Part shown: in pieces, positions 55,651-64,000 of the stretch
Layout: the number at the start of each line of letters is the position of its first letter
Numbering within the stretch: the stretch's first letter is position 1
Assembly: GCA_945952105.1 (NCBI GenBank)
Contig: CAMFGZ010000006.1
Span: forward strand, 145,275-209,274
Direction of reading: 5' to 3'
Length of the DNA: 64,000 bases
Source: an uncultured Rhodospirillaceae bacterium
Lineage (GTDB): Bacteria; Pseudomonadota; Alphaproteobacteria; Reyranellales; Reyranellaceae
The notes under the pieces: model-generated
Databases searched by the model: none
What the model saw: the letters and a program-made list of their open reading frames with translations, nothing else
Told to the model about the DNA's origin: nothing
Made by a program: the position numbers and the translations under genes

Positions 55651-56559
55651 TCAAGTGCGACGCGCCACGACGAATTCTGTGGCTTGCCTTAGCAAATCCG
55701 CCGCTTCCCCAAACGGTTCCAGGTGCGCGGCCGCCTGTCGCGCCAGCATTCCAGCCTGCGCCCTCGCCCTCTCGACACCCAGGATGGACACGAACGTCGC
55801 CTTGCCCGCGGCTTGGTCCTTGCCGGTCGCCTTGCCGAGTTCTTCGGCACTGCCCTCGATGTCGAGCAGGTCGTCGACGATCTGGAAGGCGAGGCCGAGA
55901 TCATGCGCATAGCCCGACAGCGCCATTCGCAGCGACTCGCTCGCCTTGCCGAGAACCGCGCCCGCGGTGCACGAGAAGGAGATCAGCGCACCGGTCTTCA
56001 ACCGCTGCAGGTGGGTTATCGCGCCGATCGACTGGTCCGAATCGTCCTGCTCGGCCAGCAGGTCGAGCATCTGGCCGCCCACCATGCCGCGGGCGCCTGC
56101 GGCTTTGGCCAGTTCGCTCACCAGCGCCGTGCGCACCGCCGGATCGCCATGGGTGTCCTCGTGCGCCAGAACCTCGAAGGCCAGTGCCTGCAGCGCATCG
56201 CCCGCCAGGATCGCCGTCGCCTCGTCGAACTGCTTGTGGCAGGTGGGTTTTCCGCGCCGCAGATCGTCATCGTCCATCGCCGGCAGATCGTCGTGGATCA
56301 GCGAATAGGCGTGCACGAACTCGATGGCGGAGGCCGTGCGCAACGCGGGTAGCGTCCTGACCTTGAACAGCGTGGCGCCGGCCAGCACGAAGAAGGCCCG
56401 CAATCGCTTGCCGCCGCCCATGCTGGAATAGCGCATCGCGTCGAACACGCGGGCTTCGCCCGAGGTGCCGCTCGGCAACAGGCGATCCATCGTGCGTTCG
56501 ACCGATTCGGCCGCAAACGCCAAGGCGGTCTCGAACTCTCTGTGCGACGACAACGGCAT
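55651..56559 (-). CDS. ispA: Farnesyl diphosphate synthase (polyprenyl synthetase)
   Basis: Condenses IPP with DMAPP and GPP. 302 residues. First aspartate-rich motif in [20 protein letters not shown], second in [19 protein letters not shown] is the IPP-binding N-terminal block. Product length is inferred from context (xseB-ispA-dxs) and size; geranylgeranyl synthesis cannot be excluded by sequence alone. Confidence 0.93.
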
Positions 56560-56569
56560 GGCAAGAAAA

Positions 56570-56824
56570 TCAGCCGAGGTCGGCGGGTTGCGTGGCGACC
56601 GAACCGTCGGCGGAGAAGACGATCTTCTCCACCTTCATCTTGGCCTCCGCCAGCCGCTGCTCGCAGTGGCGCTTCAACAGTGCGCCCCGTTCGTAGGCCG
56701 AAATCGCCTCGTCGAGCTTCACCTGGCCGCGCTCGAGCTGCTGGACGATGCCCTCCAGCTCTTTCAGGGCGTCCTCGAACGACAGGGCGGTGATGTCCTT
56801 CGGAAGGGTGGGTTCTTTAGCCAA
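56570..56824 (-). CDS. xseB: Exodeoxyribonuclease VII small subunit
   Basis: An 84-residue helical protein that, with XseA, degrades single-stranded [36 protein letters not shown] is the family core, of which LEGIV and LERG are diagnostic. It starts the xseB-ispA-dxs run; the ispA start lies 10 bp downstream. xseA is not in the window. Confidence 0.93.
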
Positions 56825-57099
56825 TTTTTGCCTCTTGAGGGGGTCGGCCGGGATCGTAGCCGGACGGCGCGAACATGTCGAAAGATGCCGCCCACGTCAT
56901 CAAAATAGGCTGAAAATTCCCGTTTCGAGAGCAAAACAGCGTGTCTGCAACTAACGATAATCAAAACACGCATCTGTGACATGGCCGCTTTGCATGTTCG
57001 CAGGACAAAACCCGTTCAGGCGCATTGCGATATAGTTAAGCCAATGGCAGGTTCCGCTCCGCAAAGAAATAAACGGCCATTCACCAGGAGCAGACGCCC

Positions 57100-58038
57100 A
57101 TGGGCAACGTAAGCCATCTCGTCACGCGAACCGCCGCCTTCCAGAGCTCGATCGAGAACGGTCTCGCCGAGGGATCCAGCAGCAAGGATCGCCAGTTCGT
57201 CACGGCGCTCGCGCGTGGCCTCGACATCCTCCGCGCCTTCCATGCCGGCGAAGGCATGCTGGGCAACCAGGAGATCGCGCACCGCACCGGCCTGCCGAAG
57301 CCGACCGTCGCCCGCCTCACCCACACGCTGACCGAGTTGGGCTACCTCAACTACATCCGCCGCTTCCGCAAATACGAGCTGGGCGCCTCGGTCCTGGCGC
57401 TGGGCTATGCCGCGATCTCGAGCATGGACGTGCGCCGTGCCTCGCGTCAGCCGCTGGAGCAGCTCGCCCACGCCCTCAACGCCTCGACGGCTCTGGGCGG
57501 CCGCGATCGTCATTCGATGATCTACCTCGAAGCCTGCCGTGGTCCCTCGGTCGTGGCGATCACGCACGATGTCGGCACGCGCGTGCCGATGGCCACCACC
57601 GCGATGGGCCGCGCCTATCTCTTCTCGCTGCCCGACGTCGACCGCAACAAGCAGATCGACGCCATCCGCCGCCGCTGGCGCGACGACTGGGCCAAGGTGA
57701 AGACCGGCCTCGAGCGCTCGTTCAAGGAACTGACCGACCGCGGCTTCTGCGTCACCTGGGGCGAGTGGCTGCCCGAACTCTGCGGCGTCGGCGCTCCGCT
57801 GCGCAACTCCGACGGCACGGCGGCCTATGCCATCAACGCCTCGGCGCCGATCTACCAGATCAGCCGCGACCGCCTCGAAGCCGATTGGGGCCCGCGCCTC
57901 GTCAAGGTCGCGCGCGACATCCGTACGGGCATGGCTGCCCAGCCTGCCGTCAGCGCCTCGGCCGGCTCGCCCATGCGGCCGATGATGTCCAACGGCAACG
58001 GCCATCGCCCGCCGATGGCAGCGATGGCGCGCCGCTAG
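57100..58038 (+). CDS. IclR family transcriptional regulator
   Basis: A 312-residue regulator. Winged helix-turn-helix at about 33-95 (FVTALARGLDILRAFHAG; LPKPTVARLTHTLTELGYL) and the C-terminal ligand domain (about 115-285; ALGGRDRHSMIYLEACRG, GTRVPMATTAMGRAYLF). A Ser/Pro/Met-rich tail follows. IclR proteins often govern aromatic-acid pathways; the thioesterase gene 30 bp downstream is the nearest possible target. AGGAGC lies 8 bp before the ATG. Confidence 0.9.
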   Translation: MGNVSHLVTRTAAFQSSIENGLAEGSSSKDRQFVTALARGLDILRAFHAGEGMLGNQEIAHRTGLPKPTVARLTHTLTELGYLNYIRRFRKYELGASVLALGYAAISSMDVRRASRQPLEQLAHALNASTALGGRDRHSMIYLEACRGPSVVAITHDVGTRVPMATTAMGRAYLFSLPDVDRNKQIDAIRRRWRDDWAKVKTGLERSFKELTDRGFCVTWGEWLPELCGVGAPLRNSDGTAAYAINASAPIYQISRDRLEADWGPRLVKVARDIRTGMAAQPAVSASAGSPMRPMMSNGNGHRPPMAAMARR

Positions 58039-58068
58039 GCGCGCCGTTTTTCCGAAGGCTTTCCAGAC

Positions 58069-58545
58069 ATGGCTATCCAACGACCGGCCGACGCTCGGCC
58101 GGTCGCTCCTTATGAGTTTCGCGGCTTCAACGGCGTCATCGGCCATCGGGTCGTGGCGTGGCGGCACGGCTTCGTCGAGATGCAGCTCAAGGTGCGGCCG
58201 GAACTGTGCAACGCCAACGGCCTGCTGCACGGTGGCGTGCTGATGACGCTCCTCGATTCGGCAAGCGGCTTCGCCTGCACCTTCAACGAGACGGCAACGG
58301 CGCGACGCCTCTCGGTGACGCTGGCCTTCACGACCCAGTTCATCAAGGCCGGCCGCGAGGGCGACCTGCTCACGATCCTGGGCGCCTGGCGTCCCTCGAC
58401 CAGCCAGAGCACGTTTGCCGCCGAGACCGAGATCTACAACCAGGCGAACGAACTGCTCGCCACCGGTGCCGGCACCTTCCGCTACCTGAAGGGCGAACGC
58501 AGCGACGGCACGCTCGAATTCCTCGACCAGAAAGCCGCGGACTAA
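58069..58545 (+). CDS. PaaI-type hotdog thioesterase
   Basis: A 158-residue acyl-CoA thioesterase of the hotdog fold. The motif NANGLLHGGVLMTLLDSASGFA (the HGG and the aspartate are the active-site parts) and TTQFIKAGREGDLL are typical of PaaI-like enzymes, which release CoA from aryl-acetyl or other acyl-CoAs. It probably shares a transcript with the IclR regulator. The stop overlaps the convergent UdgX gene by 4 bp. Confidence 0.87.
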   Translation: MAIQRPADARPVAPYEFRGFNGVIGHRVVAWRHGFVEMQLKVRPELCNANGLLHGGVLMTLLDSASGFACTFNETATARRLSVTLAFTTQFIKAGREGDLLTILGAWRPSTSQSTFAAETEIYNQANELLATGAGTFRYLKGERSDGTLEFLDQKAAD

Positions 58546-59951
58546 CCGTTCGCCGCGATCAGGCGGCGGACGGCGACGAGATCATCACGGAACGCGTCGT
58601 AAGCCTCACGCTTGGCCGGCTCGTCGGCCAGGCGCAGCAGATAGGACGGATGCACCGTGGCGTATCCAGCTCGCCCGTCGAGCTCGATCGGCCCGCGCAC
58701 CTTCAGCACCGAATGCGGCTTGCCGGTCAGCCCCAGCAGCGCCGTGCCGCCCATCGCGACGATGAGCTTCGGCCGCACGAAGGAAAGCTCCCGTTGCAGC
58801 CACCAGCGATAGCGCTTCACCTCGCCGGGGTTGGGCCGCTTGTGCAGCCGCTTCTTGCCGCGCGGCTCGTACTTGAAGTGCTTCACCGCGTTGGTGACAT
58901 AGACGCGCCGACGATCGATGCCGGCCTCCGCCAGGGCCTTGTCGAACAGCTGCCCCGCCGGCCCGATGAACGGCCGGCCTTCCCTTTCTTCCTGATCGCC
59001 CGGCTGCTCGCCAACAAACGCAACGTCGGGCTCCATCGGTCCCTCGCCCAGAACGGCGCGATTGGCGCCCGGCGTCAGCGGCTCCGAGGCCGCGATCAGC
59101 CGGTTTAGCTCCTCCAGAGTTTGCGGCCCCTGCTCCGCCATCGCCGCTACCGCCTTCAGCGGATCACGCTTCTGCCGCTCCGCCACCTCGCGTGCCATCA
59201 TCTCCCGGGCGCGCGCCGGCGCCTGCTGCACGAGGCCGGCAATCGACGTGGCTTCCGGCAGGTTGCGCCAGTACTTCTCCGGCATGTGCTGCCGCATCGC
59301 CCTGGGATTAAGCCGCGCCGGATTGAAGACGTTCTCGTAGTAGCAGCGCCACGCCTCCTCGAAGGCGTCGGGCTCGGGCGCGTCGCAGCGTTGCGCGGGC
59401 GGACCGACTGTCAAGTTCGCACGATCCCAGTGCAGGGAGCCGACCGGCGTCAGGATCGACCAGACGAGGCTGCGGAAGCGCTCGACGAAGAAGCCGGCCG
59501 TCGCCTCTACTATGAAGTGCTGCGGCTCGAACCAGGCGACGAACCGCTCCGTGCCGTCCGGATCATGCGTCTCGCGGAAGCGCACGAAGGCGTGCATCTT
59601 GTGCAAGTCGCGCCGCACCGACTTCGCCATCGTCTCCAGGCGATGCACAAGCGGATCGCTCTGTATTTCGAGCAGCGCACGCTCGCCGTTCAGCACACGC
59701 CAGATGGCAGCGTAGAGCAGCGCATAGCGCTCGCGTTCGGAATGGCAGACGACGAGCCGGATCAACTCACCCAACGCACGCGGCAGGCCGACCGGCGGCG
59801 CAGTCTCCACAGGCGCCTCGCCGAACAGGTCGCTTTCACCTGCCGGGCACCAGGAAACGGAATCGGGCGGGGCCTTGCGGGCCGCCAGCATGCGGACGGC
59901 AGCCCGAAAGCCGTCGATGTCCGCACCTTCTCGCAGCGGCACGCCGATCAA
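58542..59951 (-). CDS. udgX: DUF4130-UdgX fusion: uracil-DNA-binding glycosylase-like protein
   Basis: A 469-residue protein. The N-terminal half (about 60-260; YAAIWRVLNGE, LHKMHAFVRFRE, RFVAWFEPQH) is DUF4130, found with a radical-SAM partner. The C-terminal half (about 275-469) is a UDG superfamily domain with GEQPGDQE (314-321), HPSYLLR, and GKKRLH at 365-370. In UdgX the loop is GKRRIH, and its histidine forms a covalent bond with the abasic site after uracil removal; here it would be H370. The ATG overlaps the radical-SAM stop (ATGA). Confidence 0.9.
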   Translation of the reverse strand: MIGVPLREGADIDGFRAAVRMLAARKAPPDSVSWCPAGESDLFGEAPVETAPPVGLPRALGELIRLVVCHSERERYALLYAAIWRVLNGERALLEIQSDPLVHRLETMAKSVRRDLHKMHAFVRFRETHDPDGTERFVAWFEPQHFIVEATAGFFVERFRSLVWSILTPVGSLHWDRANLTVGPPAQRCDAPEPDAFEEAWRCYYENVFNPARLNPRAMRQHMPEKYWRNLPEATSIAGLVQQAPARAREMMAREVAERQKRDPLKAVAAMAEQGPQTLEELNRLIAASEPLTPGANRAVLGEGPMEPDVAFVGEQPGDQEEREGRPFIGPAGQLFDKALAEAGIDRRRVYVTNAVKHFKYEPRGKKRLHKRPNPGEVKRYRWWLQRELSFVRPKLIVAMGGTALLGLTGKPHSVLKVRGPIELDGRAGYATVHPSYLLRLADEPAKREAYDAFRDDLVAVRRLIAANG

Positions 59952-61156
59952 AAGAGACTCGCCTGCACGGGCGCCTCGGCGAGAGTGCTGCGGATCTCCA
60001 ACCGGTCGGCCACCTTCGTCGGTCGATAGTCGGCGGTGACGAGGAAGGGCAGCAATCGCTTCACGCTGCGCGCCAGTCTGCCGATGTCGGCCAGCCGCAG
60101 CCGCGCGTGCCGTCGTGCCGCGATGATCCTGTCGACGGAGCGCACGCCGAGCCCCGGCACGCGCAGCAGCATCTCGCGGTCGGCGGTGTTTACGTCGAGC
60201 GGAAAGCGATCGCGGTTCTGCAGCGCCCAGGCCGACTTCGGATCGATGTCGAGCGCAAGCATGCCGTCCTGTCCCGCACTCGCAACCTCGTCCGTGGAGA
60301 AGCCGTAAAAGCGCAGCAGCCAGTCGGCCTGATAGAGCCGGTTCTCCCGCTGCAGCGGCGGCGCCTTGAGCGGCAGCACCGCGCTCGGCTCTGGAATCGG
60401 ACTGAAGGCCGAATAATAGACGCGGCGCAGCGCGTAATCCTTATAGAGCACCGCACTGGTCTGCAGCAGAGTCGCATCGGTGGTCGCGTCGGCGCCGACG
60501 ATCACCTGCGTGCTTTGACCGGCCGGCGAGAACTTGCGGCGATCCTCCTTGGCCTCGTCGATGCGCTCCTTCATCTGACCCATGGCGCCGGTAATCGACT
60601 TGGTGCTCTTTTCCGGTGCGAATCGGGCGAGACTGTCGGGCGATGGCAGTTCGATGTTGATCGACAGACGATCCGCGAAGAGGCCCGCCTGCTCGATCAG
60701 CCAGGGATTGGCCTCGGGGATCGTCTTGAGGTGAATGTAGCCCGCGAAACCATGTTCGCGCCGCAGCTTCTTCGCGACGAGCACCATCTGTTCCATCGTG
60801 TGATCGGGATTACGGATGATGCCCGAGGAGAGGAACAGACCCTCGATGTAGTTGCGCTTGTAGAAGTTCAGAGTCAACGAGACGACCTCGTCGACCGTGA
60901 AGCGCGCGCGCTCGACGTTCGAGGAGCGCCGGTTGATGCAATAGGCGCAATCGAACAGGCAGTAGTTGGTCAGCAAGATCTTGAGCAGCGACACGCAGCG
61001 CCCATCGGGCGTGTAGGCGTGGCAGATGCCGTTGCTGGTCGAGCCGATGCCGTCGAGCCCGGCGGCTCGCTTGGGCGCGCCCGACGAGGCGCATGATGCA
61101 TCGTATTTGGCGGCGTCCGAGAGAATGCGAAGCTTGGTGGTGAGCTTTTCGTCCAA
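59948..61156 (-). CDS. Putative DNA modification/repair radical SAM protein
   Basis: A 402-residue radical-SAM protein. The cluster motif CLFDCAYC has C66, C70 and C73. Then come SLTLNFYKRNYIEGLFLSSG and a C-terminal helix-hairpin-helix (about 320-345; DREMLLRVPGLGVRSVDRIIAARR), a DNA-binding element. It matches the family always paired with DUF4130/UdgX genes. The TTG at 61156 is preferred to that at 61159 because AGGAGG lies 5 bp before it. Its promoter carries a LexA-like box. Confidence 0.88.
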   Translation of the reverse strand: MDEKLTTKLRILSDAAKYDASCASSGAPKRAAGLDGIGSTSNGICHAYTPDGRCVSLLKILLTNYCLFDCAYCINRRSSNVERARFTVDEVVSLTLNFYKRNYIEGLFLSSGIIRNPDHTMEQMVLVAKKLRREHGFAGYIHLKTIPEANPWLIEQAGLFADRLSINIELPSPDSLARFAPEKSTKSITGAMGQMKERIDEAKEDRRKFSPAGQSTQVIVGADATTDATLLQTSAVLYKDYALRRVYYSAFSPIPEPSAVLPLKAPPLQRENRLYQADWLLRFYGFSTDEVASAGQDGMLALDIDPKSAWALQNRDRFPLDVNTADREMLLRVPGLGVRSVDRIIAARRHARLRLADIGRLARSVKRLLPFLVTADYRPTKVADRLEIRSTLAEAPVQASLF

Positions 61157-61184
61157 CAACGCCTCCTGTAAACGCGAGAGCGTT

Positions 61185-61218
61185 GTTCTCTATATGTTCC
61201 ATTTGACTGTAAGCGCAA
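61185..61218 (-). promoter_or_regulatory. LexA-type box over the radical SAM-udgX promoter
   Basis: GTTC-N7-GTTC at 61185-61199, the direct-repeat form of alphaproteobacterial LexA boxes. On the gene strand a -10 TATAGA (61189-61194) sits inside the spacer, and TTGCGC (61213-61218) lies 18 bp upstream. A repressor here would block polymerase. The box ends about 29 bp before the start codon. Confidence 0.75.
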
Positions 61219-61255
61219 GCGCTGCCAATTTCTCAATTACTTCAATAGCTTAATG

Positions 61256-61966
61256 TCACTCCTCTTGGGCCGGTTTCGAACGCAGGCGATAGCGGAGCCA
61301 CATCGTTCCGCCCTCGAGGACATCATGGCTCACCAGCGTCATGCTCTCGACCGGCGCCGGGCCGAGATCGGTCTCGCCGGAATTGAACACGATCGGTCCG
61401 CCCGTGCTGCCGTCGATCACCGGGCAGATCACCAGGCTCAATTCGTCGATCAGGCCCGCTCTCAGCAAGGCGCCGTTCGCCCCGCCGCCGCCCTCCAGCA
61501 TGAGACGCTCGATGCCGAGCTCGCGGTTCAAGGTCTCGAGCGCTATCGCGAGATCGATCTCGGTCTTGCCGGCGAAGATGTAGGACACGCCGTCGGCGCG
61601 CAGCCCCGCAAGATGCCTGTCCGGCACCGCCTCGGTCAGGATGACGAGGATCGGATCTCCGCCGATATCGCGCCGCGCCCACACCGCCTTGCCATGACGA
61701 TCGAGGAAGATTCCCCACGCCTTGGCCTCGCGCTGCGCGAACCAGTTTTCGCGCGAGAACGCCTGATCCGTGTCGGGGTAATGCGGCTCCCTGCCCTTGG
61801 CGAATTCCTGCGCCGTGACGCGCCCGCACAGCCACGACCCGCCGCCCATCTGGTCGTGCAGCCGCTCGAACAGGTTGGGCACGACGTTGACCTTCGGCCG
61901 CCAGCGGCTGCCCCAGATGCGGCCATCGACGCTGCAGACCATATGGCAAAGGACGTAGGGTTTCAT
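61256..61966 (-). CDS. RibD C-terminal domain/dihydrofolate reductase-like protein
   Basis: A 236-residue NAD(P)H-dependent reductase fold. The start MKPYVLCHMVCSVDGRIWG, the middle DPILVILTEAVPDRHLAGLR and the LMLEGGGGANGALLRAGLIDEL block are those of the RibD-C/YyaP-like group. It lacks the deaminase half of RibD. It is downstream of no obvious riboflavin gene and ends 97 bp before the radical-SAM promoter. Substrate unknown; alternative start TTG at 61984. Confidence 0.82.
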   Translation of the reverse strand: MKPYVLCHMVCSVDGRIWGSRWRPKVNVVPNLFERLHDQMGGGSWLCGRVTAQEFAKGREPHYPDTDQAFSRENWFAQREAKAWGIFLDRHGKAVWARRDIGGDPILVILTEAVPDRHLAGLRADGVSYIFAGKTEIDLAIALETLNRELGIERLMLEGGGGANGALLRAGLIDELSLVICPVIDGSTGGPIVFNSGETDLGPAPVESMTLVSHDVLEGGTMWLRYRLRSKPAQEE

Positions 61967-62027
61967 GGCCTGATCATAGCTCAATGAGACCGATCAGAAA
62001 CCGGCCTCGATGGCAGGCCCATCCCGC

Positions 62028-62690
62028 CTAGCAGCCCAGCGGGATGCGCGCGATGTGGCGGTGAGTCGTCTGGCCGATGAGGCTGTGCACCAGCACGACC
62101 TCGCGGACCGTCCAGGCGATCGGCTCGACCGGCTCGGCCTCGATGTGCTTTCCGTCGTAGAGCAACGTCACGTGCGGCGTGTAGCGGCGCGCCGGACGCG
62201 GCGTGTCGTCGAGCGAATCGCTCAGGCGCTGCTGCAGCACTTCCATGCCGACGGTCGAGTCGTCGCCGGTCAACACCAGCGCCCCATTGGAGAAGCTCAT
62301 CAGGCGGTCGAAGCCGACGCGGAACGACGGCATCGAGATCCCCTCGGCGCGCGCCATCCAGCCGTCGATCTCGTCGGCATCCGGGAGCCCATGGCCTTCG
62401 TGCACGGTCGACAGGGTGACGTGGAAATGCCCGGTCTTGAGAAGCCGCCCCGTCAGGCCATGCGCGGTGCGCCAGCCGGCGGCGCGCTCGGCAATCCGTT
62501 CGGCGGTCTCGGCATCCGGCAGGGCGGCAAAGAACAGCCTGTCCGTGAAGCGCGGCCCGGTCCGGCGGAGACCTGCATGGCGACGGCGGAGACGCTCAAC
62601 GGCGAGCCGGGAAAGGCCCTGCTCCGGTCGCGGCGCCGGCGCAGGGCGTCCCGCGAAACCCTCGATCGTCGCCCCGAAAACTGCGGTCAC
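62028..62690 (-). CDS. 2'-5' RNA ligase family protein (ThpR-like phosphodiesterase fold)
   Basis: A 220-residue protein of the 2H phosphoesterase family. The paired active-site motifs are HFHVTLS and YTPHVTLLYD, and FTDRLFFAALPDAETAERI is the family start. Bacterial members ligate tRNA halves in vitro or act as cyclic phosphodiesterases. The GTG at 62690 is chosen because AGGAGG lies 6 bp before it; this leaves about 50 unusual basic residues before the family start. Its promoter overlaps a LexA-like box. Confidence 0.83.
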   Translation of the reverse strand: MTAVFGATIEGFAGRPAPAPRPEQGLSRLAVERLRRRHAGLRRTGPRFTDRLFFAALPDAETAERIAERAAGWRTAHGLTGRLLKTGHFHVTLSTVHEGHGLPDADEIDGWMARAEGISMPSFRVGFDRLMSFSNGALVLTGDDSTVGMEVLQQRLSDSLDDTPRPARRYTPHVTLLYDGKHIEAEPVEPIAWTVREVVLVHSLIGQTTHRHIARIPLGC

Positions 62691-62711
62691 GGCTTGCCTC
62701 CTCATCTGTAT

Positions 62712-62744
62712 GTTCATGATATGTTCTATATGGGGATAAGGCAA
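62712..62744 (-). promoter_or_regulatory. LexA-type box over the RNA ligase-like promoter
   Basis: GTTC-N7-GTTC at 62712-62726. On the minus strand a -10 TATCAT (62716-62721) lies inside the box and TTGCCT (62739-62744) is 17 bp upstream, an excellent promoter. The same design as the box at 61185. The unknown plus-strand gene begins 58 bp to the right. Confidence 0.75.
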
Positions 62745-62784
62745 TCCCTCCGACGCCGGGCGATACATTTGATACGATGGGACC

Positions 62785-63156
62785 ATGCAGATTCGCGGCT
62801 TCTACGAATTCGGCCATACGCTCGACGTCCTCGACGCCGAGAGCCATGGCTTCGCGCCGGCGGACGTCGCCCATGTCGAACGGTTCTGGGCGTTCGGCGA
62901 CATGCACGACAGTTCGGCCGGCTTCGTGCTGAAGCTGCGCGACGGCCGCCACGCCTATGCCGAGTTCCTGCACTGGCACGGCTTCGAGCAGGACGAGGAT
63001 TTCAGGATCGACGTGGAGATGCTCGACGGCGACGAGCTGCCGACCGCGCCTCTGCGCGAGCCCCTGCCCGGAGACGCCACCTGGCCGCCGGGCGGCTGGT
63101 CAGGCGAGACGGCACATCTCGACCGTCTGCTGCTCCAGGCTGAGGCGGCCCCGTAG
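62785..63156 (+). CDS. Hypothetical protein divergent from the RNA ligase-like gene
   Basis: A 123-residue soluble protein I do not recognise. It starts MQIRGFYEFGHTLDVLDAES and has a beta-rich middle (SAGFVLKLRDGRHAYAEFLHWHGFEQDEDFRIDV, partly quoted as a guide), then a Pro/Gly-rich acidic tail. Codon use looks like that of its neighbours. The shared promoter region with a LexA-like box suggests possible co-control with the RNA ligase-like gene. No cysteine or nuclease motif is seen. Confidence 0.65.
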   Translation: MQIRGFYEFGHTLDVLDAESHGFAPADVAHVERFWAFGDMHDSSAGFVLKLRDGRHAYAEFLHWHGFEQDEDFRIDVEMLDGDELPTAPLREPLPGDATWPPGGWSGETAHLDRLLLQAEAAP

Positions 63157-63166
63157 CGGCGACGCG

Positions 63167-63586
63167 CTACTTCTTCGTCGCCTGCTCGCGCAGCGTCTCG
63201 GCGATCTTCTTGGCGTCGTAGGTCGGATAGAACTCGGTGCGGAAGGCCTTCCACGCCCCCTGCTCCACTGCGCGATTGACCTCACGCAGTCGCGCTGGCG
63301 GCACGCGGAGCGTCACGATGTAGCCGAGGCCCATCGCGATGTACCAGGACTCGACCTGGATGCCCTCGGGCGGGAACTTCGCCCAGAAACCCTGCTCGGC
63401 CTGGATCTTGTTGATCTCGTCCAGGTTCATCGTCTGGTCGTGCCGCATGATGACCGTGAGCAGGATGTAGTCGGACGGCGTCGCCGCCGGACCGGGCACG
63501 GCGGCCACCGGCGGCGGAGTCTGGGACATCGCGGGGAACGTGAACATCATTACCCCGACAGTGAGCGAAACTCCGAACCGCTTCAT
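63167..63586 (-). CDS. Hypothetical secreted protein
   Basis: A 139-residue protein with a cleavable signal peptide (MKRFGVSLTVGVMMFTFPAMS, cut near AMS-QT), a Pro/Ala-rich linker and a small alpha/beta domain (DYILLTVIMRHDQTMNLDEI, ESWYIAMGLGYIVTLRVPP, partly quoted). I do not know its function; the domain resembles periplasmic proteins of unknown role in alphaproteobacteria. It is convergent with the previous gene, and the membrane protein gene lies 34 bp upstream on the same strand. Confidence 0.6.
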   Translation of the reverse strand: MKRFGVSLTVGVMMFTFPAMSQTPPPVAAVPGPAATPSDYILLTVIMRHDQTMNLDEINKIQAEQGFWAKFPPEGIQVESWYIAMGLGYIVTLRVPPARLREVNRAVEQGAWKAFRTEFYPTYDAKKIAETLREQATKK

Positions 63587-63620
63587 CTAAGCCTCCCCAA
63601 GTTACGGCCAGCAACACGGC

Positions 63621-63947
63621 CTACGGTTTCAATGGGACTTTCGGCCAGAACCGCAAAGTAGCCCAGAAGGCCGAACCGCCAAGCGCCCCACAGACCCCGG
63701 CGCGGATAACGCTCTCGATCATGTCCGCCGACAAACTGTGCCTTATCGGGGCATCGCCGAAGAACGGACCGAACACAAAGAACCCCGTGGCTCCGACAAG
63801 CGAGCTCACAACGATAGCCGCGATCGGCCCCGTCCATCCGAACCGCCTGCAAAGCAGTATCAACGGAAGGCCAGCGACAACCACAATTGGAAGAACAAAG
63901 ACCACCATTGTGTAGACCGCCAGATAGGCGGTCACGTCCAATGCCAT
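63621..63947 (-). CDS. Hypothetical small membrane protein
   Basis: A 108-residue protein with about three membrane segments (about 7-30, 39-62 and 79-98) and a short basic tail. No family motif is recognised. It lies upstream of the secreted-protein gene on the same strand and could share its transcript. The last 53 bp of the window to its right hold no gene that I can see. Confidence 0.6.
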   Translation of the reverse strand: MALDVTAYLAVYTMVVFVLPIVVVAGLPLILLCRRFGWTGPIAAIVVSSLVGATGFFVFGPFFGDAPIRHSLSADMIESVIRAGVCGALGGSAFWATLRFWPKVPLKP

Positions 63948-64000
63948 TAGAGCGTTTCATGGCTTGAGTGAATCGAAGGGGATTCCCGAGCGGTCGAGAC

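Follow-up and report, generated by a model that had tools for sequence, protein, structure and literature searches.

In Deinococcus, ligT is part of an operon (cinA-ligT-recA) that is induced by radiation and belongs to the DdrO/IrrE damage regulon. In Salmonella, mitomycin C induction of the RNA-repair operon rsr-yrlBA-rtcBA requires RecA and the cleavage of LexA, and tRNAs are cut in a RecA-dependent manner after mitomycin C, leading to RNA ends of the 2',3'-cyclic-phosphate kind (PMC7790460). The LexA motif published for Caulobacter is GTTCN7GTTC (PMC12700426), and the same motif was found ahead of a 2H-phosphoesterase gene on a stretch of 64,000 nucleotides (nt) from the genome of an uncultured Rhodospirillaceae bacterium of the family Reyranellaceae (GenBank assembly GCA_945952105.1, contig CAMFGZ010000006.1, positions 145,275 to 209,274). 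This whole stretch is referred to here as the window, and the 2H gene with its box is the subject of the analysis.

The locus differs from each of the described systems. Deinococcus LigT (drCPDase, PDB 5h7e) is controlled by DdrO/IrrE and not by LexA, and its operon differs from that of the window. The route to the Salmonella operon is indirect, via the sensing of tRNA fragments by RtcR, and neither RtcB nor RtcA belongs to the 2H enzymes. Human ASCC1 is eukaryotic, has a KH domain and involves no LexA, unlike the 2H system of the window. Given Deinococcus ligT and the Salmonella operon, the statement in an earlier note on this DNA that no case of such a link between DNA damage and RNA repair had been described was too strong. 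What stands of it is that direct control of a 2H enzyme by LexA was not found in the open-access literature searched, with supplementary gene tables outside the coverage. The texts on the LexA regulons of Caulobacter and Dinoroseobacter, again as available and with supplementary tables outside the coverage, name no 2H gene, and a term check of the available text of PMC6473078, PMC12700426, PMC13384398 and PMC9380542 gave no occurrence of "RNA ligase".

The 2H phosphoesterase gene and its promoter

The gene and the elements ahead of it are as follows:

62028-62690, minus strand: 2H-phosphoesterase gene, 220 amino acids, GTG start at 62690-62688, predicted LigT/ThpR fold
62697-62703, minus strand: ribosome-binding site GAGGAGG, preceding the GTG, with a GGGAGG-like consensus at +24 to +29 from the box start
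62712-62726, plus strand: LexA-type box GTTCATGATATGTTC, an exact match to GTTC-N7-GTTC, reading GAACATATCATGAAC on the gene strand
62716-62721, minus strand: -10 hexamer TATCAT, within the LexA-type box, aligned across 47 promoters
62739-62744, minus strand: -35 hexamer TTGCCT, with a TTGCTT consensus at the same place in 47 promoters

The two hexamers are separated by 17 nt (TTGCCT-17-TATCAT, minus strand), and this was the sole sigma-70-like promoter reported by a promoter scan of positions 61100-62850. The box, with the -10 hexamer inside it and the -35 hexamer at this spacing, is placed before the GTG, which confirms the observation of the earlier note; the distance from box end to GTG is 21 nt. 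No Rfam match was obtained within positions 56500-64000. The 2H protein matched none of the defence or phage families, and PADLOC models, a library of described systems only, gave zero matches at E 0.01 for five proteins of the window. The same intergenic region also borders a divergent gene of 123 amino acids (62785-63156, plus strand) with no Pfam or NCBIfam match, which stays beside the 2H box in the closest relatives.

The 2H protein exceeded the Pfam gathering scores of PF13563 (35.1 against 27) and PF02834 (29.7 against 23.3) and was found to contain two HxT motifs (HVT at 90 and HVT at 173). Among best copies, both HxT/S motifs are present in 51 of 63, with both being HxT in 44 of 63. 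The nearest solved structure is that of E. coli LigT, with approximately 24% identity to the protein of the window and deposited as an RNA 2',3'-cyclic phosphodiesterase (PDB 5ldi, 5ldo); the "RNA ligase" of the earlier note is accordingly a family label only.

Conservation of the LexA-type box

The 2H protein matched 56 of the 75 genomes of the family at E 1e-8, and for each genome the best copy was scored for an exact box within 350 base pairs (bp) of the match. Among the higher-scoring copies the box was present in 47 of 50 (none in genomes G068 and G041, with G020 cut by a contig end), while six weaker matches had it in G072 and G025 (none in G005, G074 and G033, with G002 cut by a contig end). 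This amounts to 49 of the 54 family genomes with upstream DNA. A sample of 385 genomes across the Alphaproteobacteria gave members of the same 2H subfamily, scoring at least 155 bits, in 11, of which seven lie beyond the family. Searching the orders of four of these seven added five members (orders of G426, G251 and G411; none for G113), and 8 of the 12 members outside the family carry the box, namely G251, G346, G501 and G502 of family f57, G426 and G476 of f61, G113 of f40 and G078 of f5. Conservation of the box in relatives, which the earlier note had named as a check, was therefore observed both within the family and beyond it. The box is reversed in orientation relative to the gene in f61, f40 and f5, as well as in G025.

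G078 has two 2H copies in tandem, of which the leading one has the box before it and looks frame-broken (locus L206, C2:128527-129076). A second 2H copy following the boxed one was also seen in 15 of 50 family genomes (for example L087 2450-2962 and L089 5547-6065), the genome of the window having none at this place. Of seven named relatives of the gene, five with the label Reyranella and one with the label Rhodospirillales are 80-93% identical to it, and the seventh is from Pelomonas at 38% identity. No GTTC box was found before either 2H copy of this betaproteobacterial relative (L066); there is a single loose CTG-N10-CAG match near the start of its second copy.

Alignment on the box of 47 family promoters, in which the half-sites are fixed by row selection, gave 1.2 bits per column for the box spacer against an average of 0.28 over 60 upstream columns. 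Outside the half-sites, the TTGCTT -35 consensus (at -18 to -13) and the GGGAGG sequence (at +24 to +29) were also informative, and the -10 is mostly TATCAT or TATAGT. This arrangement of box and -10 is the one expected of a repressor that would cover the -10.

Low-scoring 2H matches (below 55 bits) served as a paralogue control, with 40 loci covered, 21 from the order of G426 and 19 of those in the class sample. Identity as ThpR was checked for 20 of them and all 20 passed TIGR02258 at 136-174 bits, in contrast to 36.9 for the protein of the window. The LexA-type box was absent from all 40 loci within 500 bp upstream, two of which had only 285 and 443 bp of upstream DNA. Among the loci compared, the box goes with this 2H subfamily and not with ThpR-type paralogues. 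As a prediction, LexA control of the 2H gene, which the earlier note put forward, has strong support from the conservation of the box together with this control.

The genome of the window has one LexA match (TIGR00498, 151.3 bits, above cut-off), and lexA carries the same type of box 57 nt ahead of the match. Among relatives, lexA has the box in 15 of 15 in which it was found (16 tried), including f38. Counting of motifs was dropped as an argument, as it fails to separate the 2H site from chance: the window contains four GTTC-N7-GTTC motifs, a count also attained in 6 of 100 shuffles, where 1.5 would be expected, and the genome contains 88 against 58 for the reversed motif. The 2H site is held to stand above chance because its box is conserved in relatives.

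Proposed function and alternatives

As a -10-like hexamer lies inside a conserved LexA-type box, LexA is predicted to block the 2H gene until DNA damage occurs. The explanation that we favour, and regard as fairly probable, is that a 2H enzyme of predicted LigT fold is held back in this manner and, once damage has occurred, likely opens the 2',3'-cyclic phosphate ends of cleaved RNA. LexA bound to the box would cover the -10 and block transcription; RecA on single-stranded DNA would then bring about self-cleavage of LexA, freeing the -10, with the 2H gene being transcribed and translated from its GTG. The two histidines would act as acid and base in opening the 2',3'-cyclic phosphate, the likely purpose being to heal or clear RNA ends left by nucleases acting in the SOS response.

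A broader proposal, advanced tentatively, is that a 2H subfamily dedicated to healing RNA ends is under the direct command of LexA in Alphaproteobacteria, having split from LigT/ThpR and acting as a stand-alone SOS effector, with its box kept by selection in five families, which would provide the SOS response with a direct RNA-repair arm. What appears new is the LexA-box-bearing subfamily, within an enzyme superfamily that is known. If correct, LexA would directly control an enzyme of RNA processing as part of the SOS response of these bacteria, as opposed to the indirect Salmonella route by way of damaged tRNA. Considered alongside Deinococcus ligT, this would make two unrelated repressors that had each recruited a 2H enzyme to the regulon for DNA damage, and the role of LigT-type enzymes would become testable through one SOS-induced gene.

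Several observations weigh against these proposals. Regarding function, the protein of the window does not reach the cut-off of TIGR02258, the ThpR/LigT equivalog model (65.7), and of ten further subfamily members nine fall under it and one lies just over, the range for all eleven being 36.9-67.3. In 16 of the 63 copies another residue (Asn, Ser, Ala, Lys or Met) stands in place of the first Thr, and activity may therefore vary among copies. The subfamily is rare, with 4 of the 11 genomes that have it in the class sample belonging to the genus of the window, and it is partly defined around boxed members, since profile A1 was derived mostly from box-bearing sequences. A small matrix built from six SOS boxes also places the box of the 2H gene no higher than 12th among the 88 motifs, a result that is neutral to negative. 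Five family genomes (G068, G041, G005, G074 and G033) and all four f38 members (G411, G111, G507 and G512) have no box at the 2H gene, and lexA is boxed in all eight of these genomes tested (G041 being left out). As the lexA of f38 is boxed but its 2H gene is not, control of the 2H gene seems to have been lost in f38 or never to have existed there.

Among alternatives, the one that fares best retains LexA control and assigns the enzyme another substrate, such as 2',3'-cyclic phosphate in DNA following ribonucleotide removal, cyclic ADP-ribose phosphate or another nucleotide. This is considered unlikely, as LigT is clearly the nearest fold and no partner gene indicates a defined substrate.

Another alternative concerns the units lying downstream of the 2H gene:

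61256-61984, minus strand: RibD_C-family reductase gene (PF01872, 64.4 bits), start uncertain, 61984 or 61966
61185-61199, plus strand: second LexA-type box GTTCTCTATATGTTC, a GTTC-N7-GTTC match, before the radical-SAM/UdgX operon
59948-61159, minus strand: radical-SAM gene of the UdgX-linked family (TIGR03916, 539.8 bits, cut-off 343.5)
58542-59951, minus strand: UdgX-family gene fused to TIGR03915/DUF4130 (TIGR03914, 280.5 bits, and TIGR03915, 198.7 bits, both above cut-off)

One DNA-damage system could comprise the 2H enzyme together with the radical-SAM/UdgX pair, given that both promoters have a box. TIGR03916 was above cut-off in 11 of the 75 family genomes, with the exact box at the same place in all 11; ten of these also possess the 2H gene. 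The two genes are close (within approximately 2 kb) in six of the 11 (G000, G047, G037, G010, G008 and G009), with the matches on different contigs in the remaining four genomes that have both. The distance from udgX to the 2H gene after it is 53 nt in G008 and 115 nt in G009, yet the 2H gene keeps a separate box of its own. Co-occurrence was not upheld, however, as the 2H gene is present in 56 genomes against 11 for TIGR03916, 46 of the 56 have no TIGR03916 (many being drafts) and G058 has TIGR03916 without the 2H gene. Furthermore, no repair gene was found among ten neighbour proteins scanned at five 2H loci outside the family, where acetyltransferase (GNAT) genes (G426, G113) and sensor kinases (G251, G346, one genus) lie nearby. 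A single system is thus improbable. The link that the earlier note drew to the uracil-DNA-binding operon is a weak one, and the proximity of the two units appears better explained by shared membership of a regulon than by a joint machine. Nothing joining UdgX and LexA was found in the open-access literature searched.

It is more doubtful still that the enzyme cleaves a cyclic-oligonucleotide alarm signal, in the manner of phage Acb1, which acts against the cyclic-oligonucleotide-based antiphage signalling system (CBASS), so that abortive defence would be spared upon damage. Least probable of all is a chance match, or a site of another regulator, with the 2H gene outside LexA control, for although the genome-wide excess over the reversed motif is such that most single matches must be chance, and the 2H box ranks as low as given above, its conservation (49/54 and 8/12) stands against 0/40 in the paralogue control.

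Neighbouring units and other boxed genes

The RibD_C gene is situated between the 2H gene and the radical-SAM/UdgX units, starting 43 nt past the 2H stop (61 nt if the ATG at 61966 is used). In 15 of 49 loci the 2H gene, or its tandem copy, is followed by RibD_C at 37-89 nt, and the RibD_C gene may share a transcript with the 2H gene. The promoter at GTTCTCTATATGTTC was read by eye as TTGCGC, 18 nt and TATAGA and is absent from the promoter-scan output; contrary to the earlier note, the two boxes are not built exactly alike. Terminator-like inverted repeats (61171-61190, plus strand) overlap the start of box GTTCTCTATATGTTC.

Surroundings were inspected for 23 of the 88 motifs of the genome, in 20 stretches. 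Beyond the two boxes of the window, inspected motifs precede lexA, recA (TIGR02012), YifB/ComM (TIGR00368) and NrdJ (TIGR02504), and an ImuA-like gene is boxed too, with its score of 58 bits falling under the cut-off of 150. For the adenosylcobalamin-dependent ribonucleotide reductase gene, the box is T-rich and 41 nt ahead of a possible start (L012 1516-1530; C2:285715). Apart from these and the sites at the PA0069 radical-SAM and DprA genes described next, no known SOS gene was seen by eye at the remaining 14 inspected motifs.

A PA0069 radical-SAM gene (NF033668) and an acetyltransferase-like gene that diverges from it also have a box between them (L017 1525-1539; C7:123024), and at a DprA gene (TIGR00732, above cut-off) a GTTC-N7-GTTC box overlaps what is probably its ATG (L021 1520-1534; C16:50819). 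Box GTTCCTGTTTTGTTC overlaps the possible start of a reading frame of 220 amino acids (L010 1496-1510; C1:33995). Searched against Pfam and NCBIfam at E 1e-5, this frame had no match, and it is a candidate for an SOS gene of unknown type.
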